Part shown: positions 3,092-43,400 of the stretch, one piece after another
How positions within the stretch are numbered: the first letter of the stretch is position 1
Layout: each line of letters starts with the position of its first letter
Origin: Candidatus Eremiobacterota bacterium
Lineage (GTDB): Bacteria > Vulcanimicrobiota > Vulcanimicrobiia > Vulcanimicrobiales > Vulcanimicrobiaceae
Direction: 5' to 3'
Length of the DNA stretch: 64,000 bases
NCBI GenBank assembly: GCA_019240525.1
Contig: JAFAYE010000001.1
Span: forward strand, 1,213,300 to 1,277,299
Position numbers and translations under genes: made by a program
Notes under the pieces: generated by a model
Database searches by the model: none
What the model was told of the DNA's origin: nothing
The model's input: the letters and a program-made list of their open reading frames with translations, nothing else

Positions 3092-3238
3092 CTACCCGAA
3101 GACGAAGAAAGCATCGCTCCCGATATAGCACCACGTCGCGATTTGCCGCTCGAGCCGGCTGATGCCATCGTTGCCGATCGCGACCGCTATGGCGATGACA
3201 GCGCGAATCCCAACCGCGAGGACCAAGAAGACGTTCAT
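3092..3238 (-). CDS. Possible 48-aa hydrophobic mini-protein
   Basis: A short frame on the strand opposite the 5' end of the permease gene. It would encode MNVFLVLAVGIRAVIAIAVA followed by an amphipathic stretch and a second hydrophobic end (IATWCYIGSDAFFVFG), which looks like a two-helix membrane mini-protein. The composition is more protein-like than the permease frame over the same bases. There is no good ribosome binding site and no family match from memory, so this is tentative. If real, the permease must start further downstream. Confidence 0.25.
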   Translation of the reverse strand: MNVFLVLAVGIRAVIAIAVAIGNDGISRLERQIATWCYIGSDAFFVFG

Positions 3239-4787
3239 CGCGGCACGGCCGACGACATCGTCTAGGAAACAATTCCCGGAGAGCCGATTTTCGCTCTTCC
3301 GAAACGTTAAACCGCTCGCAACCATCCTCGTCGAAGGGGCCGACGCGAAGCATGGGCTGAAGCGTTCGCTTGGGCGATGGTCGCTCACCGCGATGGGGAT
3401 CGGTTGCATCATCGGCACCGGCATCTTCGTGCTAACCGGCGTTGCGTCGGCCACTCGCGCCGGGCCTGCGCTGACCGTTTCGTTTGTGATTGCCGGCTTC
3501 GTAAGTATCCTCGCCGCGTTTTGCTATGCGGAAGTTTCGAGCAAGATTCCCATCGCCGGCAGCGCGTACACGTATACGTATGCGACCGTCGGCGAGCTAT
3601 TGGCGTGGATCGTCGGCTGGGGATTGGTCTTCGAATACGCGCTCGGCGCCGCAACGGTCAGCGTCGGCTGGTCGGGATATTTCACGTTCATCCTTCACGC
3701 GCTCTTCAATATTGACATTCCTCAAGCATGGCAGCACAGCCATTGGGACATGACTCCCGGCATCGCCAACGTTCCGGCGGCAGCCATCATTCTTTTGATT
3801 ACGGCGCTCCTCGTGCGCGGCACCAAAGAGTCGGGAACCGTTAACGCCGTCATCGTCACGATCAAGATTGCCATCGTTCTCTTTTTCATCGCGATCGGCG
3901 CGAGCCACGTCAACTATGCGAACTTTCACCTTCCCGCGGGCCCGCAAACGGCGGGCGGCGGCTATTTCCCCTTCGGCTGGGCTGGAGTCATCGGCGGAGC
4001 GGCGTTTATGTTCTTCGCCTACATCGGCTTCGACGCCATTTCTACCGCCGCGGAGGAAGCACGCAATCCGAGCAAAGATTTGCCGTTCGCCATCATGGTC
4101 AGCCTCACGATCTGCACGGCACTGTACATCATCGTTGCGGCGATTCTCGATGGAATCGTGCCGTTCTATAAGCTTAACGTCGCATTTCCCGTGGCCTTTG
4201 CGATGAACTATGTCGGCATGGCGTGGGCAGGCATCATCGTTTCCTTCGGGGCAATCGCCGGGCTCACGACGGTCATGCTCGTCCAGATGTTCGGGCAGAC
4301 GCGAGTCTTCTATGCGATGTCGCGCGACGGGTTGATTCCCTCGAGTTTTGTTCGGCTGCACCCACGGTGGCGCACACCCTTCTTTTCGCAGATCTTCTTC
4401 GGGATTCTCATCGCCATTGCCGGCGCGTTCTTTCCGATCGGCATCCTGGGCTCCGCGACCAACATGGGTACCTTGATGGCCTTCGTTCTGGTTGCCGTTG
4501 CTGTGCCGGTGCTGCGCAAACGCCATCCTGAGCTGCGCGGAACTTTCGCGGTGCCGTTTGGCACCTACGTCATTCCCGTGCTAACTGCGATTTCGGCCCT
4601 GTTCTTGATCTATTTCTTAAAGGTCGGCAATCCGTTAGTATGGGGATTTTTTCCGCTGGTCTGGCTTGCATTCTTGATCTGGCTCGTCGCCGGCCTCATC
4701 TTCTACGTTTTTTATGGACGTTATCGCAGCGCGGTCGCATTACAGCGAGCGGAAGGCATCGCACCAATACAGCCGCGGGTGAACTAA
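3162..4787 (+). CDS. APC-family amino acid permease
   Basis: A 12-helix amino acid transporter of the APC superfamily, cationic amino acid/YfnA-like. Evidence is the N-terminal GIGCIIGTGIFVLTG substrate-binding helix break, the KIPIAGSAYTYTYATVGE motif, FFAYIGFDAISTAAEEARNP, and continuous hydrophobic segments to the C-terminus. Homology begins only at about base 3288 (SLFRNVKPLATIL, then HGLKRSLGRWSL). The preceding ~42 residues from the ATG at 3162 look like non-coding translation. No ATG, GTG or TTG lies where homologues start (the codon there is TTT), so the start is unresolved. The function is confident; the substrate is unknown. Confidence 0.92.
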   Translation: MPSLPIATAMAMTARIPTARTKKTFIAARPTTSSRKQFPESRFSLFRNVKPLATILVEGADAKHGLKRSLGRWSLTAMGIGCIIGTGIFVLTGVASATRAGPALTVSFVIAGFVSILAAFCYAEVSSKIPIAGSAYTYTYATVGELLAWIVGWGLVFEYALGAATVSVGWSGYFTFILHALFNIDIPQAWQHSHWDMTPGIANVPAAAIILLITALLVRGTKESGTVNAVIVTIKIAIVLFFIAIGASHVNYANFHLPAGPQTAGGGYFPFGWAGVIGGAAFMFFAYIGFDAISTAAEEARNPSKDLPFAIMVSLTICTALYIIVAAILDGIVPFYKLNVAFPVAFAMNYVGMAWAGIIVSFGAIAGLTTVMLVQMFGQTRVFYAMSRDGLIPSSFVRLHPRWRTPFFSQIFFGILIAIAGAFFPIGILGSATNMGTLMAFVLVAVAVPVLRKRHPELRGTFAVPFGTYVIPVLTAISALFLIYFLKVGNPLVWGFFPLVWLAFLIWLVAGLIFYVFYGRYRSAVALQRAEGIAPIQPRVN

Positions 4788-4788
4788 G

Positions 4789-6516
4789 TTAGCGCATCGC
4801 CCAGTTCGGATCTTTTTCGCACGGCAGCGGTCCGGGCCGGCCAACGCTCCGCGTTGGGTAATCGGCATACGTCGCCGATTTGAGATACTCAATGATTGCG
4901 TATTTCTCATCATCGGAGAGCGCGCGTCCGATACGGCCGCGACGCGTGCGATCGTTGGTGAACCAGTGCCCGGCATTGCTATTGCCGGTCAGCGATGCGT
5001 CAAAGAGCCTATCGCCGGGACCTGAACTCTGCATGAAGCCGAGCTTCTGCGGGTCGAGTTCGCGCGAGCCGAACCAGAAACGCGACGGTCGGGTTTCGCT
5101 CAGCAGATCGTAGACGGTCGGCACCGAGCCGTTGTGGAGAAACGGCGCGGTTGCCCATACGCCGACGAGTGGACGCGCCTTGTAGCCGCACGGCGCGGGA
5201 AACGCATTCCCCTCGCGGCCAAGGCCATCGTACAGCGGCCATTGCGATTTTGGAATGCCGGCATCCTTATAGGCCTGCTCCTTCACGTGGGTCACGACGT
5301 AACTTAGGCCAACGTTCGCGCGCACCGACGCCCCCAGACCAAGCTTCGTCGCGTCGTACGTATTCCGGGCATAATCGGTGGCTTGATTCGGATCGGTACC
5401 GATGCGGTCGAGCGCAAGCACCGGCACGTGCCATTCGACCGGCTTCGTACCCTCGATCACCTGAACGCCGTGACACATCGCGCAATTCGCCGCAAAGAGC
5501 ACGCGCCCGCGCTCGGCTTTGGCACGATCGATCGGCCCGAAGGCCGCGCTCCAAACCGGCGGCCGCAGCGTGCTCAGCGCATTCTCCATCCAGTAAAGGC
5601 TCTCGATGCGCGTCGAACTTTTCCAGCGCAGCGGTTCGGGATTGAGATTGCCGCGCGCGTCGATGAAGTTGGTCTGCACGCCGACGCCGAGCGCCTCACC
5701 CACGTTGCGATCCATCGGTTGGCGCAACGACGCGTTGTACTGCACCCAATCGAGACGCGTGATGTCCCACAGGTACGGAAAATCTACCGGCGCGCTCCCT
5801 GCCTTCGCATTGTGCGGGACGCCGAGATCGAGCGCGAAGACGGTCGACCCGATGGCGTTGAGCGCATCGAGGCGTCCTGGTCCGGTCGGCGTCGAGCGCA
5901 GCGCAAACTCGGGCGTCATGCGATCGGTAGACGCGCTGGGCTCGAGTTCGGCCAACGCGGAAGCGAGTTGGGCGGCCGTCAAGCCGAGCTTGACGGTTTC
6001 TTGAACGAAAGCCGCATGGCGGACAGGATCTTTCGCGGTCGTCAGGAGCGCCTGGCGCATTTCGGTACGAAACTCGTTGATGTCGGCGCCGGCTTGGCCG
6101 CCGTCGATGCGGTAGCTCACCCCGCGGTACTGAATCTGCGCCGTATGGCAAGCCGCGCAGGTGAAGCCGGCCATAGCCACGCCCGTCGCGGCATCACGAT
6201 CGATCGTGAAGCCGACGGGCCAACCGTAGGGATTCGCCGCATCCATGCGATTCTCGTCGACGATGAAACCGAGGCGTCGCATATTCGGGGGCGCCATGAA
6301 TCGGTCGCCCGACGGCGAGCGCAGCGCTTCGAGAATCGCTGCAGGTATAAATCGCGTTCCCTGCGACTCGTAGTAGTACCGATGGCGCGTCGCCGCGCTC
6401 CAGCCTTGATCGAGCCACGTGACCGACGTGGTCTGCGCGCGCGTCAGCGCGACGACCGTGGCGAGCATCCCCGCAGCGAGCAACGCGATTGAAGCGACGC
6501 GTCCGATATACGACAT
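4789..6516 (-). CDS. Exported di-heme c-type cytochrome (RoxA/CcpA-like)
   Basis: A periplasmic cytochrome of about 575 aa with two CxxCH heme sites: CAACH around residue 120 and CAMCH in the middle of the protein. The C-terminal APFLHNGSVPTVYDLL block is typical of the RoxA/RoxB and di-heme cytochrome c peroxidase superfamily. These enzymes act as rubber/isoprenoid oxygenases or peroxidases, and the sequence alone does not say which. The start at 6516 was chosen over one 19 codons upstream because it gives a clean signal peptide (MSYIGRVASIALLAAGMLA) and has AAGGG about 8 nt upstream. It is convergent with the permease gene, with 1 bp between their stops. Confidence 0.9.
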   Translation of the reverse strand: MSYIGRVASIALLAAGMLATVVALTRAQTTSVTWLDQGWSAATRHRYYYESQGTRFIPAAILEALRSPSGDRFMAPPNMRRLGFIVDENRMDAANPYGWPVGFTIDRDAATGVAMAGFTCAACHTAQIQYRGVSYRIDGGQAGADINEFRTEMRQALLTTAKDPVRHAAFVQETVKLGLTAAQLASALAELEPSASTDRMTPEFALRSTPTGPGRLDALNAIGSTVFALDLGVPHNAKAGSAPVDFPYLWDITRLDWVQYNASLRQPMDRNVGEALGVGVQTNFIDARGNLNPEPLRWKSSTRIESLYWMENALSTLRPPVWSAAFGPIDRAKAERGRVLFAANCAMCHGVQVIEGTKPVEWHVPVLALDRIGTDPNQATDYARNTYDATKLGLGASVRANVGLSYVVTHVKEQAYKDAGIPKSQWPLYDGLGREGNAFPAPCGYKARPLVGVWATAPFLHNGSVPTVYDLLSETRPSRFWFGSRELDPQKLGFMQSSGPGDRLFDASLTGNSNAGHWFTNDRTRRGRIGRALSDDEKYAIIEYLKSATYADYPTRSVGRPGPLPCEKDPNWAMR

Positions 6517-6813
6517 TGCCGAACCCTTCGGGTTCGATGCCAAAACGACTTGTTGAGGGGACCCGGCCTGCATGCTTCAGAGCCGAACATGAGTACCACC
6601 GCCTGGCGCGCGGTGATCCTGACGTGTGCGCCATCGCAGCGATTCGCGCCGTCGCTGAGTTTTTCAGGACCCGACGTTCGATGCGCGCAGAGCGCGGGCG
6701 CTTTCTGAACCCTGTTTTCGGCGTTGGGTTCGGGCTATAAAGTGGTGTTTCCACGCATATGCCGGTTGCGTTGATGAGTGCATCCTGATCGTTAAGAAAG
6801 GAGCAAATCATCA
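6517..6813. other. Intergenic region between divergent genes
   Basis: This 297-bp stretch separates the divergent cytochrome and GloVer-protein genes and must hold both promoters. The right end carries the AAAGGAG ribosome binding site (6797-6803) of the GloVer gene. I see no RNA gene, repeat or convincing ORF in it. Confidence 0.6.
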
Positions 6814-8100
6814 ATGAACACCTGGAACAGGACAGCACTTCTCGGCTTCGTCGGCTTCGCCGGCCTCGCCGGCTGCGCGGGGGCAGGGATGGCACCAAAT
6901 CCCGACGGCGCCGGCTTCTCGGCGCTGCCAAGTCTACGGAGCGGGGGCGCACCGTTGCATCAGGCCAAGCCGCTGACCTCGAGCGGCAACAGCCCCCAGA
7001 GCATCTACGTCTTCGAGGGCCAGCCCGACGGCGGGACCCCGGATGCCGGTGTGATCAACAACGGCAACACCTTGTACGGAACCACCTATCAAGGCGGCAC
7101 GAACAATCTCGGGACAGTTTTTTCGGTGACGACCGGCGGCAGCGAGCAGATCCTCCATAGTTTCGCCGCCACCGATGGCGCAAAGCCGCAAGGGTCGCTG
7201 CTCGATGTGAAGGGCACGCTCTACGGCACGGCCTCAGCGGGGGCGAACAGTGTCGACACCTATGGGAATGTCTTCTCGATCACTCCCTCCGGAAGCTTCA
7301 AGGTCGTCTACGCATTCAAGGAGAGCCCGGATGGCGCGTTCCCGGCGTCGAGCTTGATTGAGTATAAGGGCGCGCTCTACGGCACTACCGAGGACGGCGG
7401 CACCGTCGGTTACGGCACTGTCTTCAAGATCCAGCTTAAGGGCAAGAGCGCCGGTCAGGAAAGCGTTATCTACAGTTTCAAGGGCGGCCCCGGCAGCGGT
7501 CCCGACGGCGCAGTTCCGAAGTCGGCACTCGTCCACGTCGGGAACGCCTTTTACGGTACCACGTACTCAGGCGGCGCGAATGGTGGTGGCACCGTCTTCA
7601 AAGTGACAGAATCCGGCACCGAAACAGTGCTGCACAGCTTCGCGGGTACTTGTTCGGCGGCGACCGACGGCACTGAGCCAACTGGCGGGTTGCTCTATTA
7701 CAAAGGCACGTTCTACGGAACGACGTATTGCGGCGGAGCAAATGGACAAGGCACGACGTTCTCGATTACCAAGGCCGGTAAAGAGAAAGTGCTGGATTCA
7801 TTTTATATCACAACCAAGGCACCCTATGTCGGCGTACACCCGATGGCGCCACTCACCAACATCGGCGGCACGATATATGGCACGACGACAGGCTCTTGGC
7901 CGGAGGGCAGTGGCATCGTCTTTACGATGACGCCGTCCGGTACCCTGACGACCGTCGGTGTCTTTTGTCGAGGCACCGCACAAGGGTGCCCGGAGACTCC
8001 GTGGAGCGACCCCATCGAGGTCGGCAACACCCTCTACGGAACGAGCGTCGGCAACGGTGGAAGTCACGGTCTGGGAACGGTCTGGGCGCTAGCCCCCTAA
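6814..8100 (+). CDS. GloVer tandem-repeat lipoprotein
   Basis: A 428-aa exported protein. The N-terminus is a lipoprotein signal (GFVGFAGLAGC, lipobox LAGC at residues ~20-23), so the protein is probably membrane-anchored. The rest is seven repeats of about 50 residues. Each has a core of (L/F/I)YGT, a Gly-rich turn and G-T/I-V-F, for example LYGTTYQGGTNNLGTVFSV. This is the choice-of-anchor GloVer repeat, a beta-propeller-like fold of unknown ligand. AAAGGAG lies 10 nt before the ATG. The gene converges with the LAL regulator (15 bp between the stops). Confidence 0.92.
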   Translation: MNTWNRTALLGFVGFAGLAGCAGAGMAPNPDGAGFSALPSLRSGGAPLHQAKPLTSSGNSPQSIYVFEGQPDGGTPDAGVINNGNTLYGTTYQGGTNNLGTVFSVTTGGSEQILHSFAATDGAKPQGSLLDVKGTLYGTASAGANSVDTYGNVFSITPSGSFKVVYAFKESPDGAFPASSLIEYKGALYGTTEDGGTVGYGTVFKIQLKGKSAGQESVIYSFKGGPGSGPDGAVPKSALVHVGNAFYGTTYSGGANGGGTVFKVTESGTETVLHSFAGTCSAATDGTEPTGGLLYYKGTFYGTTYCGGANGQGTTFSITKAGKEKVLDSFYITTKAPYVGVHPMAPLTNIGGTIYGTTTGSWPEGSGIVFTMTPSGTLTTVGVFCRGTAQGCPETPWSDPIEVGNTLYGTSVGNGGSHGLGTVWALAP

Positions 8101-8108
8101 CCACCAAG

Positions 8109-8148
8109 GTGCAACTTATGGTCGCGCGAGCAGCACTCCAAGTTGCAC
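8109..8148. repeat. 9-bp inverted repeat between convergent genes
   Basis: Perfect arms at 8109-8117 (GTGCAACTT) and 8140-8148, with a 22-nt spacer, lie across the last codons of the LAL regulator and just past the GloVer stop. There is no T-tract on either side. It could be a weak bidirectional terminator or a protein site; the function is unproven. Confidence 0.35.
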
Positions 8149-10878
8149 GCGCGATCGTAAGTTGAGTTTGCGCAACGCAGAAGAGACGTGCTTTTCGACG
8201 GTTCGCAGACTGATGTGCAGCATCCGCGCGATCTCGTCGTTCGAATGGCCCGACGCCGCCAAATCGGCGACCTCCCGCTCGCGCGGTGAGAGTATGGCGG
8301 CGGTGGCGTCGGGTCTCCTCATCTCGACGCGGCGCAAATCGCGAAGCGCTCCGATCGCGCGATAGACGTCACGAGCGCGGGCGGCCTCGCCGCCAAGCTC
8401 GTAACCTAGCGCGGCGAGCCACGGCCAGCCGATCGCCTCAAACGCGGACGCGGCCTCCAACGCGCGTTTTGCCTGATCGGCGCTAACGATGCCGCGCTGA
8501 GCTGCAAATGCATCGAAGAGTGCGAGCCCGGCCTTGTTCACGCGATCCTGCGGGCGCGCGGCAGCGTCGGCAAGCTTTCTGCGCATCAGAAGCACGTCTT
8601 CATTCGCGCCGAACTGCGCCGACGCCAGATAGGCAAACACAAAACGATGCGAGCAAGGCAGAACCGCAGCCAGACGCGCGATCCATGCGGCCGCGTCTTC
8701 CAATTCGCCACGCACGCCGAGCGCCCACGCATACGGTCCGCCGAGCAAGCCGAGTGCGAGGTTCATTCCGTGCGTCGCTCCATAATGCAAGAACGGCTCG
8801 ACGTCGTCGCGGCGAAGAAGCGTAACGTCGCCGGAGCAGATTCCTAACACCAACCGCGCGCCCTTGACGTGAATGTGGATCGCGAAGCTCTGCGTAGACG
8901 CGCGCGCGGCTTCGTCTAGTAGGCGCGTTGCGGTGTCGAAATCGCCTCGCAAGATGTGCTCGATCGCCGATGCCGCCGATGCAAGGCTTTGCTTCGGCTC
9001 GCCGTGCCCGGGCTCGCCATGCAACACGGCTTCAAAATGCCGGCGCGCGAGGTTCGTCTCACCAAAACCGACCGCATCGAGCGCGATCTGGCAGTGCGTG
9101 TGGCGCAAGCGCGACCCCCCGTCATCGAGTCGGCGGGCCGCCTCCAATGCCCGTTCGGTATCCCGACGCCACGATTCGATATCACCGTACATCGCCGCGA
9201 CTTTGAATCGCGTCTGGTAGAAGTGCGTCGCGGTGCGCGCCTCGGCGATCGGCTCGTGGACGCCGCTCAGAAATGCGCGCGCCGAATCGAAATCGAGCGC
9301 TGCCACGCAGTTGAACGCGAGCCGAGCGCGCAGAAGGTCGAGCTTTGCAGCGGGCAGCTTTGGCTCGAGTGCCTCAATGGCCTCACGGAACACTGCCATG
9401 CCCGCAGCCGGATCGCCGGAGTTATATAGCTGCGCGCCGAGTGCAGACGCATTCTCCGCGAAGGCTTCGAGTTCGCCGAGCCGCCAATAGCGATCGCCGG
9501 CCTGGCGCAAGCGTTCGATGCCGGCGTCGAGCTCGTTGAGCGATCCGAGCGCGAGGCCGAGCTTATGCAGGAGGCCGGCCGCCAACGCTTCGCTATCGCC
9601 GTCGGCCAAAGCGCGTTCGTAGTAGAGGATCGCATCGGCCATCGCGCCGATTGCGAACGCACGATCGCCGGCAATCTCCGCATACCTCGCCGAGAGCGCA
9701 CGATTCCCCGCACGCCGCCAATGGTGGGCAAGTTCTACGCTGACAGCGCTTGGATCGGAACTCAGCTCGAGTTCGCGCGCGATCGTCTCGTGCAGCGGGC
9801 GCAGGCGTTCAGCAAGGAGCTCGTCATAGAGCACCTCTTGCGTCAACGCATGACGAAACGCGATCGTACCCTGCGCCTCCGGTGAATCGTAGACCAGCTG
9901 TAACGAGCGCGCGCGCTCGAGCGCCTTCAGTACCTCGTCGCGATCACCGCCCAGCAACGACACCAGACGTTCGATCGAGAAACGCTCGCCAAGAACTGCC
10001 GCCATCGAAAGAATCTCACGCTCTCTGTCGGCAAGCATTGCGGCGCGCGCGAGTACCGCGCCACGCACGGATAGCGGAAGTCTCTTGATGCCCCCGGCAG
10101 CGTCGCGGGCAAGTCCGGCCTTGACGAGCTCTTCGATGAAGAACGGGTTGCCCTGACTACGCCGCACGATGTCGGCAAGCGTTGACGAATCGAGTGCGCC
10201 CTTGTGTGGCATGATTGCCTCGGCCAGCGTGCGGCTCGAACGTTCGTCGAGCGGCATCATGTCGAGCGGTGCGACGCATTCCTTACCGAGCAGCTTCGCA
10301 ACATCGGCAAGCCGCGGATGACTCGCGACCAACTCCTCCGCGCGATACGTTGCAACGACGAGCAATCGACGTCGCCGAATCCGATCCGCGAGATATGTGA
10401 GAAACGCGATCGTCGAACGATCTGCCCAGTGCAGGTCCTCGATGAGCAGGATCGTCGTGCGCCGCAGCGCGCAGCGTGAGAAGGCGCTATCGATCGAATC
10501 GAAGAGCGCGCCGACCGGAAGCGGTTCCTTTTCCGGTTCGACGTACCGCTCGAATGTAAGGCGCTCGATAAGTTCTGCCGCCGCGGCGCTCTCGTGCGCC
10601 GAGCCGCGGACATCGAGCTGCATCAGAAGGTCGCGTAGCGGCGAGAGCGGCGTTTGAACGAATTCGACACAACGGGCGAGCGCACAAAAAGATCGCGTAC
10701 CGGCAATCGCCATCTCGAAATGGCGGAGCAGTCGCGATTTGCCCACGCCGGCTTCTCCGGCGACTAACACGACCCGCCCGTGGCCATCCGCCGCTTCGTG
10801 GCGATGGCCGTTGAGAATGGCCGCTTCTTTGCCGCGGCCGATCAGCTCGCCGCGTGCGTCCGAAGCGAACGGCTTCAC
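8116..10878 (-). CDS. LAL-type LuxR transcriptional regulator with AAA/STAND ATPase
   Basis: A 920-aa MalT/LAL-like regulator. The N-terminal AAA16/STAND ATPase has a Walker A (GEAGVGKS, residues ~42-49) and a Walker B (TILLIEDLHWAD). A long helical TPR-like sensor region fills the middle. The C-terminus is a LuxR DNA-binding HTH (LSPREREVADLAASGHSNDE, then ISLRTVEKHVSSALRKL). Such proteins bind an inducer plus ATP, oligomerise and activate transcription. The start is GTG at 10878. Its neighbour is the GloVer lipoprotein, in convergent orientation. The inducer and targets are unknown. Confidence 0.94.
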   Translation of the reverse strand: MKPFASDARGELIGRGKEAAILNGHRHEAADGHGRVVLVAGEAGVGKSRLLRHFEMAIAGTRSFCALARCVEFVQTPLSPLRDLLMQLDVRGSAHESAAAAELIERLTFERYVEPEKEPLPVGALFDSIDSAFSRCALRRTTILLIEDLHWADRSTIAFLTYLADRIRRRRLLVVATYRAEELVASHPRLADVAKLLGKECVAPLDMMPLDERSSRTLAEAIMPHKGALDSSTLADIVRRSQGNPFFIEELVKAGLARDAAGGIKRLPLSVRGAVLARAAMLADREREILSMAAVLGERFSIERLVSLLGGDRDEVLKALERARSLQLVYDSPEAQGTIAFRHALTQEVLYDELLAERLRPLHETIARELELSSDPSAVSVELAHHWRRAGNRALSARYAEIAGDRAFAIGAMADAILYYERALADGDSEALAAGLLHKLGLALGSLNELDAGIERLRQAGDRYWRLGELEAFAENASALGAQLYNSGDPAAGMAVFREAIEALEPKLPAAKLDLLRARLAFNCVAALDFDSARAFLSGVHEPIAEARTATHFYQTRFKVAAMYGDIESWRRDTERALEAARRLDDGGSRLRHTHCQIALDAVGFGETNLARRHFEAVLHGEPGHGEPKQSLASAASAIEHILRGDFDTATRLLDEAARASTQSFAIHIHVKGARLVLGICSGDVTLLRRDDVEPFLHYGATHGMNLALGLLGGPYAWALGVRGELEDAAAWIARLAAVLPCSHRFVFAYLASAQFGANEDVLLMRRKLADAAARPQDRVNKAGLALFDAFAAQRGIVSADQAKRALEAASAFEAIGWPWLAALGYELGGEAARARDVYRAIGALRDLRRVEMRRPDATAAILSPREREVADLAASGHSNDEIARMLHISLRTVEKHVSSALRKLNLRSRVQLGVLLARP

Positions 10879-11075
10879 GCTACTAGCGCGAACCGTCGTA
10901 TCATGCCCAGGAAGTTACGAACCTACCGGTGTTGTCCTTTACACATCGGCCGATCCCGGCTCGCACTGCGGGCTAAATCTTCCTTAGTCGATCGGCCAGG
11001 GAACAAAGCGCCAAAAGGATGATACGCCAAGTGGCGGGTTTCATCGCAGTGACCGATTCGCGCAGTCAATGGGTT

Positions 11076-11693
11076 TCAATGGGTTCCGTCATCGTTCTGC
11101 ACCGCCGCAACAAGCTTACCGTCGCGGAAAATAACGAGCAGGCGGTGTGCCGGGTCACCGTTCTTTGGGTCGGCCAGGAGTTCAAACATGGTTAGGCCGC
11201 ATTGGTGCGTGCGCGGTGCACGAGGAAAGGAGGCCTCACTGAGCCCATCGATCACGCGCGCATATGGTATCATCTTGCCGGCCTCGAGGCCGAGCGTCTT
11301 CGCCTGAGCCGAAACCACAAAGCCAAAATCTTGGCTCTCCGGACCATTCCCGTCGAATCCCACGATTCCGGGAGCCTCGATTTCGGCGCTAAAGACCAAG
11401 TATCCGTGCTGGTCGCTCGTGAGTACAGTCCCCAAGTCATGGGTAGGGCGCGTTAGCTCGAGCGGTGCAAGCTGGGCGAATGGCACCGTGAACGGCGTAA
11501 CGGCCTTTCCTTCCGGCGGATTCCAGGGCGCTACATGGACCTGAATGCAAGACAACACCGGATTGTTGCGCGCGAAGGCAATCCAGCGCGGCACCAGTGG
11601 GCTTCGATACGGCGTGCTACTCGGCTCAGTCGCGCTCGATTGGGAACAAATCGCGACGGTCATCAGAAAAGCGGCACAAGCGCGTATCATCAT
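11076..11693 (-). CDS. Exported protein of unknown function
   Basis: A 205-aa protein with an N-terminal signal peptide (MMIRACAAFLMTVAICSQSSA). No family is recognised. The mature part is beta-rich with two Cys residues (LSCIQVHV and HQCGLTMF) and ends in LLVIFRDGKLVAAVQNDDG. It may be a small periplasmic beta-sandwich protein. There is no strong ribosome binding site. The 197 bp between it and the LAL regulator upstream hold nothing I recognise apart from a short direct repeat near 11067-11088. It is divergent from the decayed ATPase remnant. Confidence 0.7.
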   Translation of the reverse strand: MMIRACAAFLMTVAICSQSSATEPSSTPYRSPLVPRWIAFARNNPVLSCIQVHVAPWNPPEGKAVTPFTVPFAQLAPLELTRPTHDLGTVLTSDQHGYLVFSAEIEAPGIVGFDGNGPESQDFGFVVSAQAKTLGLEAGKMIPYARVIDGLSEASFPRAPRTHQCGLTMFELLADPKNGDPAHRLLVIFRDGKLVAAVQNDDGTH

Positions 11694-11714
11694 TATCGTT
11701 GCTTCCCGGCGCTG

Positions 11715-12126
11715 CGGCTAAGGTCCTTAAGTGAAGAAGTGATTTTCGAATGCAAACCAACAGCGGGCCACGTTGCCATCTTGAAACCCCTTAGGCAAGG
11801 AGATGTGCACGGAATTGCGTTGAGGCACTCCAGCGGAGGGCGTGACCGCTATATGCTGCCGAAGCGCTGCTAACGCTCGCAAAGGCAATCGGTGCTGACT
11901 CTTTGGTTACATCAGTGAACTTGGCTTTAGAGGAAACGCGTACCACTCAGGTGACGCCGACGCGGCGCTGCAAATAACGGCCGAAGTAGTCGCGAGCTGC
12001 CGGGCGGAAAATCAGCCAAGAGCTGCCTTTACGCTCTCCGACATGGCCGAGTACCTCGTTACATTAGTCGATACGATGAAGCGCGCGCGCATCCAAACGA
12101 GGCAGTGGAAATGGCTCACTGGCTAA
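11715..12126 (+). pseudogene. Decayed remnant of an XRE-STAND ATPase paralogue (TPR region)
   Basis: No intact gene occupies 11694-12306, but broken frames on the plus strand resemble the C-terminal helical region of the two XRE-STAND ATPases in this window. One frame (11724-11850) gives GDVHGIALRHSSGGRDRY. A second (11847-11936) gives AAEALLTLAKAIGADSL, which matches TEALRLAKVLGADRL of the gene at 13477. A third (11933-12126) gives GDADAALQITAEVVASCR and then LSDMAEYLVTL; these match GDAAAAQQLQSELLAS and LNQMATYLIGL there, and LSNMAAYLIAL of the gene at 25636. At least two frameshifts are needed and the P-loop and HTH parts are absent. The similarity was judged by eye. Confidence 0.55.
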
Positions 12127-12306
12127 GATTAGCATATCCTTGCTCAATCGCTCCGACATCTTGTCTCGAGCGCGCTGCTTCGGCCCGGCGATGAAACGTT
12201 GAAGCGCCGTTTGGCTTTTACGTGCGCGCTATTTCGGTTTAGGCTTCGTTGAAGCTCAATTGGTTAATTTGGCGAGGTCGAGTCAATGATGCCGACAAGC
12301 TGCGCT

Positions 12307-13344
12307 TTAGGGGATAAGTGGCGGAGTTACGGCTACACCTATGGGGCCACCACCTACGGTAATGCTGTTTTCCGGCGTCCCGCCTGCCGGAAAGTCGTAT
12401 TCATCTGCAAAGCCGTTGCTTCCCGGAAGTTGCGTCGCGTAAAAATCGCTTCCCGAAGCCAAGAAAGCAAAAGAATTCGGGAAAGAACCCGACGTCGTCA
12501 AAGGTGTCGTCGAGACGGGGCTGCCAAGAGCGCCCTTGTGCGGGGGGCTATAGGCGTAAACGGTATCAGCCCCTGCATCGAGCACGGCTATCTGATCTGC
12601 TTTGTCGATCTGGATACTATAAACGGCTTTGAGAGTATTTGCAGTTGTGAGCATTACAATTTTCTTTGCATTGCAGCCGCCTTTGACTTCAGCTATCGGA
12701 TTTTGGCTAAGGCTGGCAATGTATAGATTCCCTTTATCGTCGAACGCGCCGCTTTGCGGCAACAATAAACTGGAAGCGACGAGCGTTAGGCATGCCTGTG
12801 TCGAGTTGGCCGGGTAGAAGGCGATGCTGCCGGAGTTCAACGAGCAGCTTGATGCCGTGCAACTACTGTTCACGACCGCAACGAGACCCTTTTTCGAAAT
12901 TGCGACGCCTTGAGGGTAGTATCCCGTATCGTTTAAGATCAGCTTCGGACTTCCCGTATAAGGAGGTGCGTAGACGAGGACGTTTGAGGCGTCGGAGTTC
13001 GCGATGTACAGGTTATCTTGAGTGTCAGTCGCAATCCCTTGCGGGTAGCTCAAGCCTGTGATTTGTCCGACCATCTTGTTCTTGCCCGATTGCAGGTAGA
13101 TGTCAACGACATTCCCAGACTCGTCCGACACGAATATCAGCGGCTTTCCTTTGGCATCGTGGCGGAAAAAGTTGGCAGTTCGTATCGGGCGCTCAGAAGC
13201 GACCAACTGTTGGCGAGACAGCATACTATTAGGAATTTGGGGAACCGTTGGCGCCACTAGCGGACTGCCGCCGGAGCATCCGGCTAGGAGCGTCAAGGCG
13301 ATGGATGTCTTGAGCGCGCGACGCAGACTGATGGAAATGCGCAT
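12307..13344 (-). CDS. Beta-propeller (NHL/YVTN-like) lipoprotein
   Basis: A 345-aa exported protein with a lipobox (ALTLLAGC, Cys at about residue 23). The mature part has repeated propeller blades with the pattern YPQGIATD..NLYIANSDASNVLVYAPPYTG, then YPQGVAISKKG and similar. It probably sits on the periplasmic side of a membrane. Some propellers of this kind bind sugars or lactones, but no catalytic signature is visible. The start at 13344 was chosen over longer options because it gives the signal peptide and has GAGG about 8 nt upstream. It is divergent from the XRE-STAND ATPase gene, across 132 bp. Confidence 0.85.
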   Translation of the reverse strand: MRISISLRRALKTSIALTLLAGCSGGSPLVAPTVPQIPNSMLSRQQLVASERPIRTANFFRHDAKGKPLIFVSDESGNVVDIYLQSGKNKMVGQITGLSYPQGIATDTQDNLYIANSDASNVLVYAPPYTGSPKLILNDTGYYPQGVAISKKGLVAVVNSSCTASSCSLNSGSIAFYPANSTQACLTLVASSLLLPQSGAFDDKGNLYIASLSQNPIAEVKGGCNAKKIVMLTTANTLKAVYSIQIDKADQIAVLDAGADTVYAYSPPHKGALGSPVSTTPLTTSGSFPNSFAFLASGSDFYATQLPGSNGFADEYDFPAGGTPENSITVGGGPIGVAVTPPLIP

Positions 13345-13476
13345 GTTTAAATCCTCACAAGTTTGGAACCGATGGCGTAGCCGTGAGCCGCTTGTTATTG
13401 TCCGCTTACAGGATGAAGAGGTACAGGCACAAGTGTACAAGTTATCCGCACAAATGCGAACGAGGCCCACCGCCGA

Positions 13477-16065
13477 ATGGAGCTGGGCATGGAGGCCGCG
13501 GGTCGACCTGACTTTGGGACGCTGCTGAAGCAGTTTCGCCTTAGCGCGGGCATGACGCAGCACGAGCTAGCGGAACGGGCCAATCTCAGCGTGGAAGCGA
13601 TAGGCGCCCTAGAACGAGGGGCCCGAACCCGGCCCCAGCGGGAAACGTTAGTTTTGCTTGGGTGTGCCCTTCAGCTGTCGCCGGAACGCCAGCAGCTTCT
13701 GACAAGCGCAGTCGGCGCCGCACACCCGCCTCGCCGACGCGACCGCACCGGTGCAATGAGCGCACCGCTGCTACGCATAGTCCGACCAAACACCCGAGTT
13801 TCCCGTAATCATAACCTCCCTCAGCAACTTACATCGTTCATTGGGCGACAGCAAGAGATCGATGAGATCGGTGCGTTGCTTTCTAAGCACCGCCTTGTCA
13901 CAATCGTCGGAGCGGGCGGAGTCGGGAAGACGCGAGCTGCGATTGAGCTGGCACACAACGTGGTCGCGGCCTTCTCCGACGGCGCGTGGCTCGTCGAGCT
14001 TGCCTCGCTGGCACACGAAGGGCTGGTGGATGCCGCCGTTTTGTCGGCTGTGCGCCTTCCTACGAGCACCGCAGCCGCGCTTGAGGCCGCGATCGCATAT
14101 CTCAGGACACGGCGCCTTCTCCTGATCTTGGACAACTGCGAGCACGTCATCAATCGGGCTCGCCACGTCGCGGCTAGCATCGTTGAGGCGTGTCCGGGCG
14201 TACACATTCTCGCGGCGAGTCGCCAGGCATTCGAGATTGCTGGCGAACGAGTCTATCGCTTGCCCTCGCTTTCGGTCGCACCGGATACGTGCCGAACCGC
14301 GCACGAGGCGCTTTCGCACGCCAGCGTTGCGTTGTTCGTCGATCGGGCACGTGAATCGCAGTCCACCTTCGCCTTGAGTGACGACAACGCGTTCGACGTC
14401 GCAGACATCGCCCGGCGCCTCGATGGCATTCCACTTGCGATCGAACTTGCGGCCGCACGCGCGAACGTGCTTGGCGCGCGCCAAATCGCCAAGCTTCTCG
14501 ATCAGCGCTTTCGCTTGCTCAATCACGCGAATCCCGGAGTATTGCCGCGGCACCAGACGATGACCGCCCTGATCGACTGGAGCTACGATCTACTGACCCC
14601 ACGGGAACAGCGGTTTTTCGAGGCACTCTCCGTCTTCGCTAGTGGCTGCACGCTGGAGGCGGCTGCCGCCGTTTGCGGGGTAGAGGGAGAAGACGACGTC
14701 GACATCGTCAACCTTATCTCGTCGCTGGTTACGAAGTCGTTGTTGGTCGCAGAATCGGTCAGCAGCGAGCACCGCTATCGCCTTTTAGAATCGTCGCGGC
14801 AATATGCGTTGGGCAAGTTGGTCGCGAGTGGCGCGCGGGAGGAAGTAGCGGGTCGTCATGCCCGGTTTTACGTGGAGTTTGCGGAACACTTGGAACGCCA
14901 TTGGGGAACGATGCGCGATAGCGATTGGCTAGTGCCGACGAAGCCCGAACTAGAGAACTGGCGAACAGTGTTTGAATGGACGCTTTCGAAACGGAATGAC
15001 ATCACTTTGGGGCAACGTCTGGCTGCCTCAGGGCACGTCGTGGGTTGGTGCTTTCCGCAGGTCGAGACCCGGCGTTGGATGCGAGTGGCGTTCGAGTCGG
15101 CGGACGCTACTACCCCGCGTGGACTATTAGCACGCCTCGAACATGCGGAGGCGGACCACGCCAGGCAGCGAGGGGCATGGACCGAGTCACTTGCCGCGGC
15201 CGAACGGGCACTCGCACTCTATTGCGAACTAGGCGACAGCGCGGGCAGCGCCTGGGCCCAAAGCTTGGCGGGCGGAGCTTTGGCGCTTCTAGAGAGGCCT
15301 ATGGAAGCGGAGCCATTGCTACAAGAGGCCTTAAAATCAGCGCACGGGAGGGGCGATCTGCGCTTGACCGCTACCGTTCTTCAGCAAATGGGGTGGGTAA
15401 AGAGCATCGCCGGCAATTTAGGCGCGGCACGCGAGTGCCTTACGGAAGCATTGCGCCTCGCGAAGGTCTTAGGCGCGGATCGTTTATGGACAGCCATAAT
15501 GGGAGCATTGGCCGAGAACGAATTTCTTTCTGGCGATGCAGCGGCGGCGCAACAACTGCAATCGGAGCTTCTGGCGAGCATTCGCCCCATGACCTCGTGG
15601 GGCAATGGCATTGCGGCGAACCTTAATCAGATGGCTACGTACCTGATCGGATTAGCTCGGTACGGTGACGCCAAGGCACATGCAGATGAGGCCCTTGAGC
15701 TTGCCAGCGGGCTCGGACTCTCGGTTATGGTCCTACTAGCACTGCACCATCTCACAGCGGTAGCGCTCTTCCGCTCACGAAATGACCAATGCGGTGCTGC
15801 GGCTTATGGGGGGATTGCTCGGCTCCTCGGCTTCATCGATTCTCGGCGCACCGCTTTGGGGATTTCAAAGCACTACGGCGTGCCGCATCAGTATGATGAT
15901 TTAATTAACGTTCTTCACGATGTCATCGAGGCCGGCGAACTTGGGCGTCTGCTAGCTTTAGGCGCGACGATGACCGAAGACGAGGCAATCGTACAGGCGC
16001 GTGCCTTCGGCTGCGATGCAAGAGCCGATGATACACAAAATTCTCAAGGTGGCGGGAGCGTGTAG
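13477..16065 (+). CDS. XRE-family HTH regulator fused to NB-ARC/STAND ATPase and TPR domain
   Basis: An 862-aa predicted signal-transducing ATPase. The N-terminal XRE/Cro HTH (residues ~14-70) reads LLKQFRLSAGMTQHELAERA. It is followed by a STAND NTPase with P-loop GAGGVGKT (~145-152) and Walker B LLLILDNCEH (~214-223). The C-terminal half is TPR-like helices. The NTPase core and TPR part resemble the AfsR/SARP-associated ATPases. It is probably a transcription factor that switches on ligand binding. A paralogue lies at 25636-28149. The last five codons run into the convergent tRNA-Sec gene (overlap 16050-16065). There is no clear SD, so the start is approximate. Confidence 0.92.
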   Translation: MELGMEAAGRPDFGTLLKQFRLSAGMTQHELAERANLSVEAIGALERGARTRPQRETLVLLGCALQLSPERQQLLTSAVGAAHPPRRRDRTGAMSAPLLRIVRPNTRVSRNHNLPQQLTSFIGRQQEIDEIGALLSKHRLVTIVGAGGVGKTRAAIELAHNVVAAFSDGAWLVELASLAHEGLVDAAVLSAVRLPTSTAAALEAAIAYLRTRRLLLILDNCEHVINRARHVAASIVEACPGVHILAASRQAFEIAGERVYRLPSLSVAPDTCRTAHEALSHASVALFVDRARESQSTFALSDDNAFDVADIARRLDGIPLAIELAAARANVLGARQIAKLLDQRFRLLNHANPGVLPRHQTMTALIDWSYDLLTPREQRFFEALSVFASGCTLEAAAAVCGVEGEDDVDIVNLISSLVTKSLLVAESVSSEHRYRLLESSRQYALGKLVASGAREEVAGRHARFYVEFAEHLERHWGTMRDSDWLVPTKPELENWRTVFEWTLSKRNDITLGQRLAASGHVVGWCFPQVETRRWMRVAFESADATTPRGLLARLEHAEADHARQRGAWTESLAAAERALALYCELGDSAGSAWAQSLAGGALALLERPMEAEPLLQEALKSAHGRGDLRLTATVLQQMGWVKSIAGNLGAARECLTEALRLAKVLGADRLWTAIMGALAENEFLSGDAAAAQQLQSELLASIRPMTSWGNGIAANLNQMATYLIGLARYGDAKAHADEALELASGLGLSVMVLLALHHLTAVALFRSRNDQCGAAAYGGIARLLGFIDSRRTALGISKHYGVPHQYDDLINVLHDVIEAGELGRLLALGATMTEDEAIVQARAFGCDARADDTQNSQGGGSV

Positions 16066-16143
16066 GAATCGAACCTACCAGTCGCCTTGCGACGACCTCA
16101 GCGATTTTGAAGACCGTGCGAACCACCAGATTCGTACGCTCCC
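16050..16143 (-). tRNA. selC: tRNA-Sec, anticodon TCA
   Basis: A 94-nt selenocysteine tRNA including an encoded CCA (16050-16052). Diagnostic features are an 8-bp acceptor stem (GGGAGCGT paired with ACGCTCCC), a 6-bp D stem with a 4-nt loop, anticodon loop CTTCAAA with UCA reading UGA, a long variable arm with a GTCG/CGAC stem, and a 5-bp T arm (GTAGG, loop TTCGATT, CCTAC) followed by discriminator G. The anticodon stem contains a G-T pair and a possible A-C mismatch. Its 3' end lies inside the last codons of the convergent XRE-STAND ATPase gene. It fits with selA and selB in the same window. Confidence 0.95.
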
Positions 16144-17104: not shown

Positions 17105-17123
17105 GAAATCGCCCGCGCAGAAT

Positions 17124-17398: not shown

Positions 17399-17872
17399 TT
17401 AATGCACTTGCAGCGCTACGTCTTGCTCGATCGCGGTGCCGGCCGTATTGCGCGCGATGACTTGCAAGTTGAGATTGTGGCTCATGAAAAAAGGCAGACG
17501 CGGCACCGTCGAGGTCATGGTGAAGTGCCCAACGTCGGTCTTGGTCATGCCGCTGCCGTAGCCGCCCACTCTCAGCTCGACGCTCGCAACGTTCGACGAC
17601 GTCAATACGGTCACGGTCAGCACGTCGCCCGCGCGCGGCGTCGTCGAGCTCAGTTGCACGTAGAGAATTTGCGGCGCCGCGTCCGGTGGCAACATCAGAA
17701 TTGTCGGCGTTGCAAACGGCGTCGGCGACGGACTAGCGCTCGCTGCCGGCATTGGGCTGGCGCTCACTGCCGGTGAAGGCAATGGGCTTTGGGGGGACAC
17801 CGACGGCATCGGCGAGGGCGGCGGCGCAATGCCGGCCAAGAGCAAACAAGCGACGGCGAAGAGAGCGCGCAT
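17399..17872 (-). CDS. Secreted protein with Pro/Ser-rich linker and Ig-like domain
   Basis: A 157-aa exported protein. A short signal peptide (MRALFAVACLLLAGIA) is followed by a linker of about 40 residues of Pro/Ser/Ala repeats. The C-terminal domain of about 90 residues (ILYVQLSSTTPRAGDVLTV, then VRNTAG-like ends) looks like an Ig-like/bacterial surface beta-sandwich. It is probably a cell-envelope or surface protein; no ligand is evident. It is divergent from typA, with about 93 bp between the starts. Confidence 0.65.
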   Translation of the reverse strand: MRALFAVACLLLAGIAPPPSPMPSVSPQSPLPSPAVSASPMPAASASPSPTPFATPTILMLPPDAAPQILYVQLSSTTPRAGDVLTVTVLTSSNVASVELRVGGYGSGMTKTDVGHFTMTSTVPRLPFFMSHNLNLQVIARNTAGTAIEQDVALQVH

Positions 17873-17965
17873 ACGGTCACCTTCGAGGCGCGCGTGCGAT
17901 CACCGCCGCGTCCCGACGAGTACGCCGCCGAAGAAGCTGACCGCTCGAGAGCGAAGCAGGGCGCG

Positions 17966-19804
17966 GTGAAGACTCGCTCCGACATACGAAACGTCGCGAT
18001 CGTCGCCCATGTCGATCATGGGAAAACGACGCTCGTTGATGCCATGCTCAAGCAGAGCGGGGTCTTTCGCGAAGGCCAGCACGTTGCAACCCGCGTTCTC
18101 GATTCGAACCCGCTCGAACGCGAGCGTGGCATCACGATCCTGGCCAAGAACACCGCGGTGCGTCACGGCAGCGTCAAATTCAACATCGTCGACACGCCGG
18201 GACACTCCGATTTTGGCGGCGAGGTCGAGCGTGTGCTGCAAATGGTGCAGGGCATCTTGCTGCTCGTCGATGCCGCCGAAGGGGTGATGCCCCAAACCCG
18301 TTTCGTGTTGCGCAAAGCGCTCGAGCTCGATCTGCGCGCCATCGTCGTCGTCAACAAGATCGACCGCAAAGACGCGCGTCCGCAAGAAGTCGTGAATCAA
18401 ACCTTCGATCTCTTCGTCGAGCTCGGTGCCAACGACGAGCAGGCCGATTTTCCGGTCCTTTTCACGAACGCCAAAGCGGGAACGGCCACGCGCTCGCTAC
18501 CGGTCGCGAGCGATTCGCTGGAACCGCTTTTCGAAACCATCGTCGCTCGCGTTCCCGAAGCGCCGGCAGAAGATGGCCCCTTTCAGCTGCTCATTTCGGC
18601 GATCGATCATAACCGTTACGTCGGCCGCGTCGGGGTCGGACGAATATTTCGCGGCAGCTCGCGCCGCAACGACCCCATCGTCAAGATCTCTCGCGAGGGC
18701 GAGATCACGCCGGGCTTGCGCCTCACGAGCTTACTGACCTTCGCCGGCTTAGAGCGCATTGACGTCGAGGAAGCGACGGCGGGCGACATCGTCGCCGTCT
18801 CCGGCATCGACGATCTTAACATCGGCGACACGATTGCCGAGGCGAGTGCGCCCGAGCCGATTCGCGCGGTTGCCGTCGACGAGCCGACCGTCTCGATGTT
18901 CTTTAGCGTCAACAACTCACCGTTCGCGGGACGTGAAGGAAAGTTTCTCACGTCGCGTCAGGTGCGCGAGCGGCTCATGCGCGAGCTGGAATCGAACGTC
19001 GCCCTGCGTGTCGCCGAAACGTCGTCGCCCGACACGTTCGAAGTGCGCGGACGCGGCGAGCTGCATCTCGCGATTCTCATCGAGACGATGCGCCGCGAAG
19101 GCTACGAGCTCGCCGTCTCCAAGCCGCAGGTCATTCTCACCGAGCGCGATGGTGCGCGCTACGAGCCGGTGGAATACGTGGTGGTCGACGTCGCCGAGCA
19201 ATATGCGGGCGCGGCCATCGAGGCGCTCGGCCGGCGCAAGGCGGCGATGTCGAACATGCTGACCGTCGGCGACCTTCAGCGTCTGGAGTACACGATGCCG
19301 ACGCGGGCGATCTTCGGCTTGCGTGGCGAGCTGCTGACGTTGACGCGCGGTACGGCCGTGCTCTCACACACGTATTACGACCATCAGCCGTGGCAGGGCG
19401 AGCTTCCCAGCCGTAACGTCGGTGCACTGGTCGCTAGCGAAACGGGGCGCACGACGGCCTACGCCCTGATGGGTTTGGAACAACGCGGACGTTTCTTTGT
19501 TGGGCCGGGGGTTGACGTCTACGAAGGCATGGTCGTCGGCCACGCCAACGACAACCACGACGTGGCGATCAATGTCGTGCGCGAAAAGAAGCTCACCAAT
19601 ATGCGCGCCGCGGGATCCGACGAGAACGTGAAGTTGGCGCCCCCCGAGCAACTCTCGCTCGAAGCCGCAATCGAGTTCATCGACGACGACGAACTCGTCG
19701 AAGTGACGCCGGCATCGATCCGGCTTCGCAAACGACTGCTCAACGAAACCGACCGGCTGCGGCTGCGAAAGCGCGACGCCGCGGCGGCAGCCGCTAAGGT
19801 TTGA
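17966..19804 (+). CDS. typA: Ribosome-binding GTPase TypA/BipA
   Basis: A translational GTPase related to EF-G that binds 70S ribosomes and helps large-subunit assembly under stress. Evidence is the G1 motif [11 protein letters not shown]3 [18 protein letters not shown]4 VNKIDR, the domain II/III signatures and the C-terminal [14 protein letters not shown] region specific to TypA. The GTG at 17966 gives 612 aa, the normal family length. Upstream in-frame ATGs would add unrelated residues that overlap the divergent gene. The last 11 bp overlap the 3' end of the S9 peptidase gene. Confidence 0.97.
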
Positions 19805-31851: not shown

Positions 31852-31867
31852 GTGCGCGGTCTGCGGT

Positions 31868-42068: not shown

Positions 42069-43400
42069 CTATCGCGAAGCGAGGTCGCGGCAGAGCGCGG
42101 CGATCACGATCTCGTCTTCTTCGGGCGCCATCGTTCGCAAGTCGAGCATGAGCCGGCCGTCGGCGATCCGCGCGACGATCGGCGGAGTTCCCGCCCGTAG
42201 GCGCCTCGCGAGCAGATCGGGGTGGTCGTCATGGATCGCTATGGCAACGGAGGGAACCCGCTCCTGCGCGAGCGCGCCGCCGCCGACGTACGCGTCGCTC
42301 TCGTGCGGCACGGCGCCCGGTACGGCGTCGGCATAGTTCTTCGCCCGTTCGCGCAGTTCGTCCAGACTCGCCGAGAGCATCCGGTAAATAGGCACTCGTT
42401 CCTTGAACGAGCCGCTGCGATAGAACTCGAGTGTTGCGCCGAGCGCCGCTAAGGTCATCTTGCCGACGCGCAATGCGCGAAGCAGGGGATTGGCGCGCAA
42501 ACGCGCGATCAGATGCGCGTGTCCGACGATGATGCCGGCTTGGGGACCGCCGAGCAACTTATCGCCCGAGAAGACGATCACGCCGACGCCGTCATTCACC
42601 GCCTCTTGGACGGTGCGCTCGTGAACGACGCCAAAGGCCGCAAGATCGACGAGCGCGCCGCTGCCCAAATCTTCGGCCACCGTGATCCCGGCGCGCCGGC
42701 CGAGCTCGACCAGCTCGCGCGCGCTCGCATCGTGCACGAAACCGTCGATTCGGTAGTTCGACGGATGCGTGCGCAAGAGCAGCGCCGTCTGCGGCGAGAG
42801 CGCCCGTTCAAAATCATCGGCGTAGACGCGGTTGGTCGTTCCGACTTCGACGAGCCGCGCGCCGCTGCGCTCGAGCACATCGGGCAGGCGAAAGCCGCCA
42901 CCGACCTCGACGAGCGCGTTTCGGGCAACGATCACCTCTCGCCCACGTGCAAACGTGTCGAGCACCAGCAGCACCGCCGCGGCGCAGTTGTTGACGACCA
43001 GCGAATCGGGAGCGCCGGTGACATCGTTGAGCAGCCCGGCAACGCGTGAATAGCGCGAGCCGCGTTCGCCGGTTTCTACATCGTACTCGAGGTTCGAATA
43101 TCCGCGACTCAACTGAGCAACCGCGGCGAGCGCGCTCGCTCCGAGCGGCGCGCGCCCGAGGTTCGTGTGGATGACGATTCCCGTGGCATTGATGACCGGC
43201 AAGAGCGCCTGCCGGCGAAGGCCCTCTAAGCGTTCGCCGACGTTTTCGACGATCGCGTCGTAAGAATCGCTGCCGCTTGCACGCGCGCGGCCGAGTTCTT
43301 CCTCGGCCGCGCGACGGACAACGTTTCTTCCAAGTTCGGCCTCGTACGCAGCGAGGCGCCGATCGGCGAGCACCGCGTGCATCGCCGGAATGGCTCTCAC
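42069..43400 (-). CDS. selA: L-seryl-tRNA(Sec) selenium transferase SelA
   Basis: A PLP enzyme that converts Ser-tRNA(Sec) to Sec-tRNA(Sec) using selenophosphate. Family motifs: LLPVINATGIVIHTNLGRAP, GYSNLEYDVETGERGSR, NNCAAAVLLVL, VEVGTTNRVYADDFE and the PLP lysine in FSGDKLLGGPQAG. The GTG at 43400 overlaps the trxA stop (GTGA) and gives 443 aa, including the conserved N-terminal RAIPAMHAVL. A longer frame would only overlap trxA. Expression is probably coupled to trxA and gyrA. Its product would charge the tRNA-Sec encoded at 16050-16143. Confidence 0.97.
   Translation of the reverse strand: MRAIPAMHAVLADRRLAAYEAELGRNVVRRAAEEELGRARASGSDSYDAIVENVGERLEGLRRQALLPVINATGIVIHTNLGRAPLGASALAAVAQLSRGYSNLEYDVETGERGSRYSRVAGLLNDVTGAPDSLVVNNCAAAVLLVLDTFARGREVIVARNALVEVGGGFRLPDVLERSGARLVEVGTTNRVYADDFERALSPQTALLLRTHPSNYRIDGFVHDASARELVELGRRAGITVAEDLGSGALVDLAAFGVVHERTVQEAVNDGVGVIVFSGDKLLGGPQAGIIVGHAHLIARLRANPLLRALRVGKMTLAALGATLEFYRSGSFKERVPIYRMLSASLDELRERAKNYADAVPGAVPHESDAYVGGGALAQERVPSVAIAIHDDHPDLLARRLRAGTPPIVARIADGRLMLDLRTMAPEEDEIVIAALCRDLASR

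Follow-up and report, generated by a model that had tools for sequence, protein, structure and literature searches.

A regulator gene ending inside the tRNA-Sec gene of a Candidatus Eremiobacterota bacterium, and marks of repeated DNA joining at this tRNA among its relatives

The tRNA-Sec gene and the selenocysteine system

The only tRNA gene recognised by ARAGORN in the window, i.e. the whole 64-kb stretch of DNA analysed here, is a tRNA-Sec gene with anticodon UCA, read on the minus strand from 16143 to 16050 (Table 1). Its match to the Rfam family RF01852 reaches 71.3 bits, over the cut-off of 47 (E 2.6e-14), and its encoded 3' end is ...CGCTCCC-G-CCA; the acceptor and T stems, read by eye, count 8 and 5 pairs, which with the G before CCA is the bacterial pattern. 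The initial annotation had proposed a complete tRNA-Sec with UCA anticodon and encoded CCA, and ARAGORN, Rfam and the sequence itself bear this out. On the Rfam alignment, also by eye, we observe a seeming bulged C in the anticodon stem and a seeming one-base linker after the acceptor stem; a bulge at 43a is reported for other unusual tRNA-Sec in PMC5330540.

A DNA search of the own genome found one copy of this gene, the other matches being short, with E 0.06 or worse. No convincing second copy or fragment appeared either in this search or in 104 kb of the own contig, nor any convincing repeat of either end of the tRNA across these 104 kb: the best pieces score 23-28 vs maxima of 27-32 in ten shuffles, one piece out of four (score 28, opposite strand) being one point over its own shuffle control of 27. 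The earlier statement that no second copy of the tRNA end was to be found thus holds over 104 kb.

Both selA and selB lie inside the window, on the 5' side of tRNA-Sec. Their family matches, TIGR00474 for selA (G000:C1:1255392-1256696) and TIGR00475 for selB (G000:C1:1244098-1245144), are over the cut-offs, as is that of selD (386.2 bits), which is outside the window in the same genome. With selA, selB and selD all present, a tRNA-Sec left as a relic without its system is ruled out; judged by its company, the tRNA-Sec appears to be a working gene. Besides, two putative formate dehydrogenase alpha matches, one covering positions 53-672 of 672 and the other partial, contain one in-frame TGA each and stay below the family cut-off. 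Scores of 63 bits or more for RF01852 were counted from the rows in 42 of 60 genomes, own included, and 44 of the 60 are over the cut-off once lower scores are admitted; low scores mean little because the search responds in all 14 controls and exceeds the cut-off in 5 of them. Of the 51 genomes whose selD match exceeds the cut-off, 27 have, by our own count, an in-frame TGA in this gene; the selD of the own genome has none.

Table 1. Coordinates of the features at the locus, in positions of the window
Feature	Positions	Strand	Basis
Amino-acid permease, taken as paralogue	3162..4787	+	Pfam, tblastn
Variable block between tRNA-Sec 3' end and first gene in order with same-genus G014; edges inferred	3354..16049		synteny, distances
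RoxA-like cytochrome c protein	4789..6573	-	Pfam
AAA-LuxR regulator	8116..10878	-	Pfam
NHL-repeat gene, divergent from XRE-STAND; pair recurs in G102 and twice in G048	12307..13563	-	Pfam, tblastn
XRE-STAND regulator gene (HTH_3, TPR_12, weak AAA_16 and nSTAND1); start may be 13489	13477..16065	+	Pfam; alignment with two G048 homologs
C-terminal extension GCDARADDTQNSQGGGSV plus stop, not common to closest homologs	16009..16065	+	homolog tails, alignment, translation
Overlap: last base of codon 858, codons GGC GGG AGC GTG, stop TAG; antisense of tRNA 3' end	16050..16065		sequence
tRNA-Sec, anticodon UCA, encoded GCCA 3' end	16050..16143	-	ARAGORN; Rfam RF01852, 71.3 bits; genome search
BipA/TypA, 5'-side neighbour of tRNA-Sec in many family members	17789..19804	+	Pfam, tblastn
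selB open frame	29965..32202	-	family match 30799-31845, TIGR00475 267.5 bits, over cut-off; ORF
selA open frame	42069..43643	-	family match 42093-43397, TIGR00474 507.1 bits, over cut-off; ORF

The XRE-STAND gene and its tRNA-coded tail

The XRE-STAND frame is open from 13477 to 16065 and its TAG stop (16063-16065) lies within tRNA-Sec. The overlap, formerly described as the last five codons and the stop, is real, but its 16 nt amount to four whole codons, part of a fifth, and the stop. The protein ends at residue 862, and the last four residues of GCDARADDTQNSQGGGSV, GGSV, are coded wholly by the tRNA; the proposal that the acceptor end writes the protein's tail is confirmed, this tail being absent from the closest homologs. 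Indeed the window protein extends 17-18 residues beyond the end of its closest relatives: the two best full-length homologs, both in G048, end on alignment at the equivalent of residue 845, and among 29 homolog tails compared the end corresponds to query residues 843-849 in 25 and to 852-855 in three (L102, L105, L106); the alignment of the remaining one, L090, extends to residue 860. Since the homologs stop at about 845 and the window protein at 862, the native stop appears to be gone, the tRNA supplying a new one. The tail of L090 also ends in GGG; a tRNA-like end was ruled out in that case, as ARAGORN finds no tRNA at the locus and the DNA is unlike one. From L090 we see that tails may become longer with no tRNA involved, and that a long tail alone is no proof of a join.

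The antisense of the tRNA 3' end reads GGC GGG AGC GTG TAG in one of its three frames, so that a join in that frame gives any gene the residues GGSV followed by a stop. The tRNA-coded tail itself is probably neutral. The initial annotation held that such tails arise by insertion of DNA at the tRNA 3' end; this fits the marks found in relatives (see below), but a plain deletion or rearrangement can also give the tail, because the tRNA end carries the antisense TAG by itself. One must then consider that the XRE-STAND gene was already in the variable region and that a deletion or end-joining, with no site-specific recombinase, put its 3' end on the tRNA; we take this possibility seriously without favouring it, and come back to it with the evidence from relatives.

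Together with the divergent NHL-repeat gene, the XRE-STAND gene forms a pair (12307-16065) whose relatives are scattered. The two copies in G048, a member of another family, encode regulators 56 and 55% identical to that of the window; in G102 (same family, other genus) the identity is 62% over 419 residues (4-422) with no match beyond, the regulator being cut short. In the own genus the matches, among those listed, go up to 45%, or 47% for the partial one of G004. An XRE-STAND-type gene stands 5.6-6.7 kb after tRNA-Sec in G019 (45% over 393 residues). At the DNA level the regulator gene matches elsewhere by pieces only, which mostly fall at 3.1-4.0 kb of the query; the longest piece, 1.3 kb at 66%, is in G102. 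ARAGORN found no tRNA in the two G048 stretches carrying the pair, and the tRNA-Sec pieces near these pairs, scored with no shuffle control, reach only 21-28, none being convincing. The patchy spread of the pair would fit a transfer; loss within the genus would fit too.

Two sources of the regulator were tried and rejected: a viral origin, none of 35 candidate stretches in viral contigs encoding a relative, and a donor among named genomes, where the best-segment identity is only up to 47% (best 80 loci). In the latter scan 9 of the first 12 rows are Eremiobacterota MAGs. A second gene of the XRE-STAND family lies in the window at 25636-28149, between ClpB and selB, and the family has 7 matches in the own genome.

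The variable block and its edges

From about 35 kb left of the window to position 3353, gene order is largely kept in the same-genus genome G014. There, tRNA-Sec and the first gene of this order are about 2.2 kb apart, vs 12.7 kb in the window. None of the seven large frames spread over 3.16-16.07 kb was found in place in the 3' flanks compared, and the block was therefore put at about 3.35-16.05 kb; matches to 6814-8100 in the 3' flanks of relatives are at 31-47%. The permease frame that straddles the left edge matches the same place of G014 as another permease left of the window, which matches better. An edge at about 6.8 kb had been suggested at first; synteny with G014 moves it nearer 3.4 kb.

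The block is absent from the same place in the relatives compared, as an island would be. Its G+C per kb (0.53-0.65) overlaps that of the surroundings (0.55-0.65), and its genes are ordinary, with no transfer or phage gene among those scanned with Pfam. No integrase (PF00589) is found in the window; the whole genome has four PF00589 matches, none near tRNA-Sec. Concerning a direct repeat of the tRNA 3' end, which the initial annotation suggested searching for beyond the window, the 104 kb of own contig yielded nothing convincing, including at the far end of the block, where a displaced fragment of tRNA-Sec would be expected. Thus, of the island proposed to the left of the tRNA, the site is supported by relatives, but the block of this genome carries neither integrase nor direct repeat.

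The join among family members

We compared the DNA between 11.0 and 17.7 kb with 99 genomes of the family, 86 of which match, own included. Among the matches listed, at least 63 other genomes match at tRNA-Sec (own count; G100 only in part), and in these the match ends at most 12 bp beyond the tRNA, on either side. The join of the window is seen, among the same matches, in the own genome only, and other genes come after tRNA-Sec in the 3' flanks compared. The same gene order and overlap throughout the lineage, which the initial annotation had named as what would refute an acquisition, were looked for in the relatives and are not there. An ancestral overlap conserved in the lineage is thus scarcely credible: we found nothing to support it, and at the level of the family it is refuted as far as these at least 63 genomes go, none having the join.

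The overlap might also be functional, either by read-through of the XRE-STAND gene producing an RNA antisense to tRNA-Sec, which would tune the use of selenocysteine, or by the tail altering the regulator. The two genes are convergent, and no terminator-like site was found beyond 15019 in a scan of 13200-17200; however, the scan, with three such sites vs a shuffled mean of 4.5, says little, and a join confined to the own genome among the matches listed argues against a function. We consider this very unlikely.

To compare the surroundings of tRNA-Sec, 83 loci of 81 genomes were gathered (G001 and G046 with two contigs each), leaving out G100, where ARAGORN gives no tRNA-Sec in the stretch taken. 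Each locus was taken with at most 20 kb of 3' flank and 10 kb of 5' flank; many flanks are shorter, and they often stop at contig ends, so that misses are no proof of absence. A gene of the own genome's left flank is found on the 3' side in 29 of the 83 loci, own included, counting as anchor a match of at least 38% identity to any one of ten left-flank genes; some of these anchors may be paralogues. The distance is 1.7-15.4 kb in 28 of them; the 29th anchor, in G026, is at 23.3 kb with 43% identity and may be a paralogue. On the other side, BipA is 0.13-8.4 kb from the 5' end of tRNA-Sec in 33 of the 83 loci.

Integration marks at tRNA-Sec in relatives

An integrase-like frame is close to tRNA-Sec in 11 of the 83 loci, as detected by a profile grown from three seeds to 14 frames, which misses distant integrases. 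Eight are on the 3' side and antisense (G003, G005, G008, G021, G031, G090, G097 and G102), those of G005 and G031 being pieces at contig ends and that of G021 standing 0.7 kb away; three are on the 5' side and on the tRNA strand (G014, G040, in pieces, and G041). Repeats of the tRNA-Sec 3' end occur in three of the 83 loci, G013, G022 and G026: nt 68-94, 71-94 and 69-94 are found again 2.1, 2.2 and 5.8 kb downstream, with scores of 44, 40 and 52 vs shuffled maxima of 25-28 (the threshold of 32 points was our choice; the highest shuffled score anywhere in the census is 34). The loci with these repeats hold a pentapeptide-repeat gene, a TPR-sulfotransferase gene and a set of HTH, C5 methylase, Vsr and UvrD-like helicase genes; neither PF00589 nor our own profile recognised an integrase inside the three stretches. 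In G026 (G026:C4:218824-238823, L080) the latter set is bounded by tRNA-Sec on one side and by a perfect 26-nt copy of the tRNA 3' end on the other. In G001, two contigs agree in the tRNA and in the 30 bases that precede it, and their sequences part right after CCA; these two versions may be population variants or an assembly effect. From such marks, tRNA-Sec is an integration hotspot in this lineage.

The use of tRNA-Sec by integrative elements in relatives and the divergence of the two G001 versions right after CCA both speak against a plain rearrangement at the window locus. On the other hand, this locus has no integrase or repeat, the antisense TAG gives GGSV to any gene joined in the right frame, and the genes ending at the tRNA belong to three unrelated families, which fits chance joins. 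These genes come from the 78 loci whose 3' flank measures 300 bp or more, in which 25 frames of at least 100 codons enter tRNA-Sec. Frames that stop at the acceptor end and are supported by outside homologs or Pfam occur in four of the 78 loci: the window genome (G000), G027, G047 and G050; three more such frames (G006, G046a, G064), for which the set offers no homolog, are possibly spurious. The gene for an FAD-dependent oxidoreductase in G027 ends LGGSV, six residues past three relatives (G092, G093, G094), and seven relatives of this gene are 3.6-6.9 kb from their tRNA-Sec; the GNAT genes of G047 and G050 end GGRR at tRNA-Sec. Tails from the tRNA thus look like a by-product of joining, met with unrelated genes.

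Displaced 5' halves

Displaced 5' pieces of tRNA-Sec lie upstream of the gene in nine loci of relatives, eight in the census and that of G041 from longer stretches. Five of them (G048, G097, G115, G101 and G077) cover nt 1 to 38-40, with scores of 65-78 vs shuffled maxima of 24-29. In G096 the piece is nt 13-39 and sits at the edge of a contig; in G047 it is nt 3-22, preceded by matching DNA, and in G001 nt 1-29 with mismatches; the weakest scores, 38 for G001 and 40 for G047, are near the highest shuffled score of 34. Our own profile recognised no integrase between piece and tRNA in the eight census loci.

The repeat of G041 (G041:C11:184500-252500, L284-L287) had been missed by the 10-kb limit of the census on the 5' side. 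It is a perfect copy of nt 1-42 (score 84 vs shuffled 28), about 60 bp after the selB stop. The whole tRNA-Sec follows 64.3 kb downstream, so that the copy bounds a 64-kb element beside selB; an integrase (PF00589, 3.4e-22) ends 22 bp before the whole tRNA-Sec. Eight longer stretches were searched in this way, seven of which held a tRNA (that of G022 held none): no 5' piece was found in those of G025, G003, G014 (1.1 kb upstream only) and G046, and that of G008 gave only a weak piece (33) on the other strand. The same architecture is found at the tRNA-Ser(UGA) of G013 (G013:C7:526300-566299, L291, L292), where nt 1-39 are displaced by 31.0 kb (score 78 vs shuffled 23) and an integrase (1.5e-24) is about 100 bp upstream of the tRNA. 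The element encodes a ThsB-like TIR protein and a ResIII-endonuclease paired with a methylase. Another integrase frame stops some 90 bp short of the displaced half, which would fit a second element formerly present at this spot.

These observations might make tRNA-Sec a two-ended integration site in the lineage, combining ordinary use of the 3' end with integrases that use the 5' half. An element of the second kind would bring its own 5' half and the DNA preceding it, leaving the old half upstream, and its integrase would stand immediately ahead of the rebuilt tRNA, on the strand of that tRNA; the tRNA-Sec of the window would be the worn product of traffic from both sides. We give this extended proposal an even chance of being right. 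If true, in such cells tRNA-Sec, and the use of selenocysteine with it, would be expressed from element-borne DNA.

Interpretation and comparison with known systems

Altogether, the reading that we prefer, with a probability of roughly 0.57, is that tRNA-Sec is a recurrent DNA-joining site and that a segment with the NHL/XRE-STAND pair was joined to its 3' end in the window genome. The join would have cost the regulator its own stop; 13 codons would then run through DNA without counterpart in the closest homologs, before translation enters the antisense of the acceptor end, where the tRNA would give GGSV and TAG in one of three frames. That the block arrived by site-specific integration, its integrase and second repeat being lost later, is likely; we infer it from the marks seen in relatives, because neither of these two hallmarks is present at the block itself.

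A protein gene can thus gain a new end from a tRNA gene, and annotators may take GGSV or GGRR tails beside tRNA-Sec as possible marks of junctions, not as features of the protein. More widely, an integration hotspot is mapped in a little-studied bacterial group, with relatives carrying methylase-and-helicase and other cassettes; in the literature searched we found no work on tRNA-Sec islands in Eremiobacterota.

In the selC islands of enterobacteria, too, DNA is joined to the 3' side of the tRNA-Sec gene. The present case differs by its phylum, by small cassettes devoid of a recognised integrase and by many displaced 5' halves. With the tRNA-targeted islands of Islander, as presented in PMC4383910, relatives share the regenerated tRNA and the displaced fragment, and G041 also the adjoining integrase; by contrast the window block, having neither fragment nor integrase, would fail that search. 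The tRNA-Lys of phage Fionnbharth, which overlaps gene 37 on the opposite strand (PMC10865867), is likewise a tRNA gene overlapping an opposite-strand protein gene, but it is borne by a phage, whereas that of the window is the only tRNA-Sec found in its genome.

The bacterial elements based on a 5' half, met as a by-product, are more unusual than the window locus. In archaea, pTN3-like integrases work with the 5' half of a tRNA, a mode which the review PMC8371274, citing Williams 2002, describes as seldom met in bacteria. The elements of G041 and G013, which are relatives and not the window genome, resemble them in supplying the 5' half, with the integrase upstream on the tRNA strand, and differ in being bacterial: here a tRNA would be rebuilt, by way of the 5' half, by elements of bacteria.
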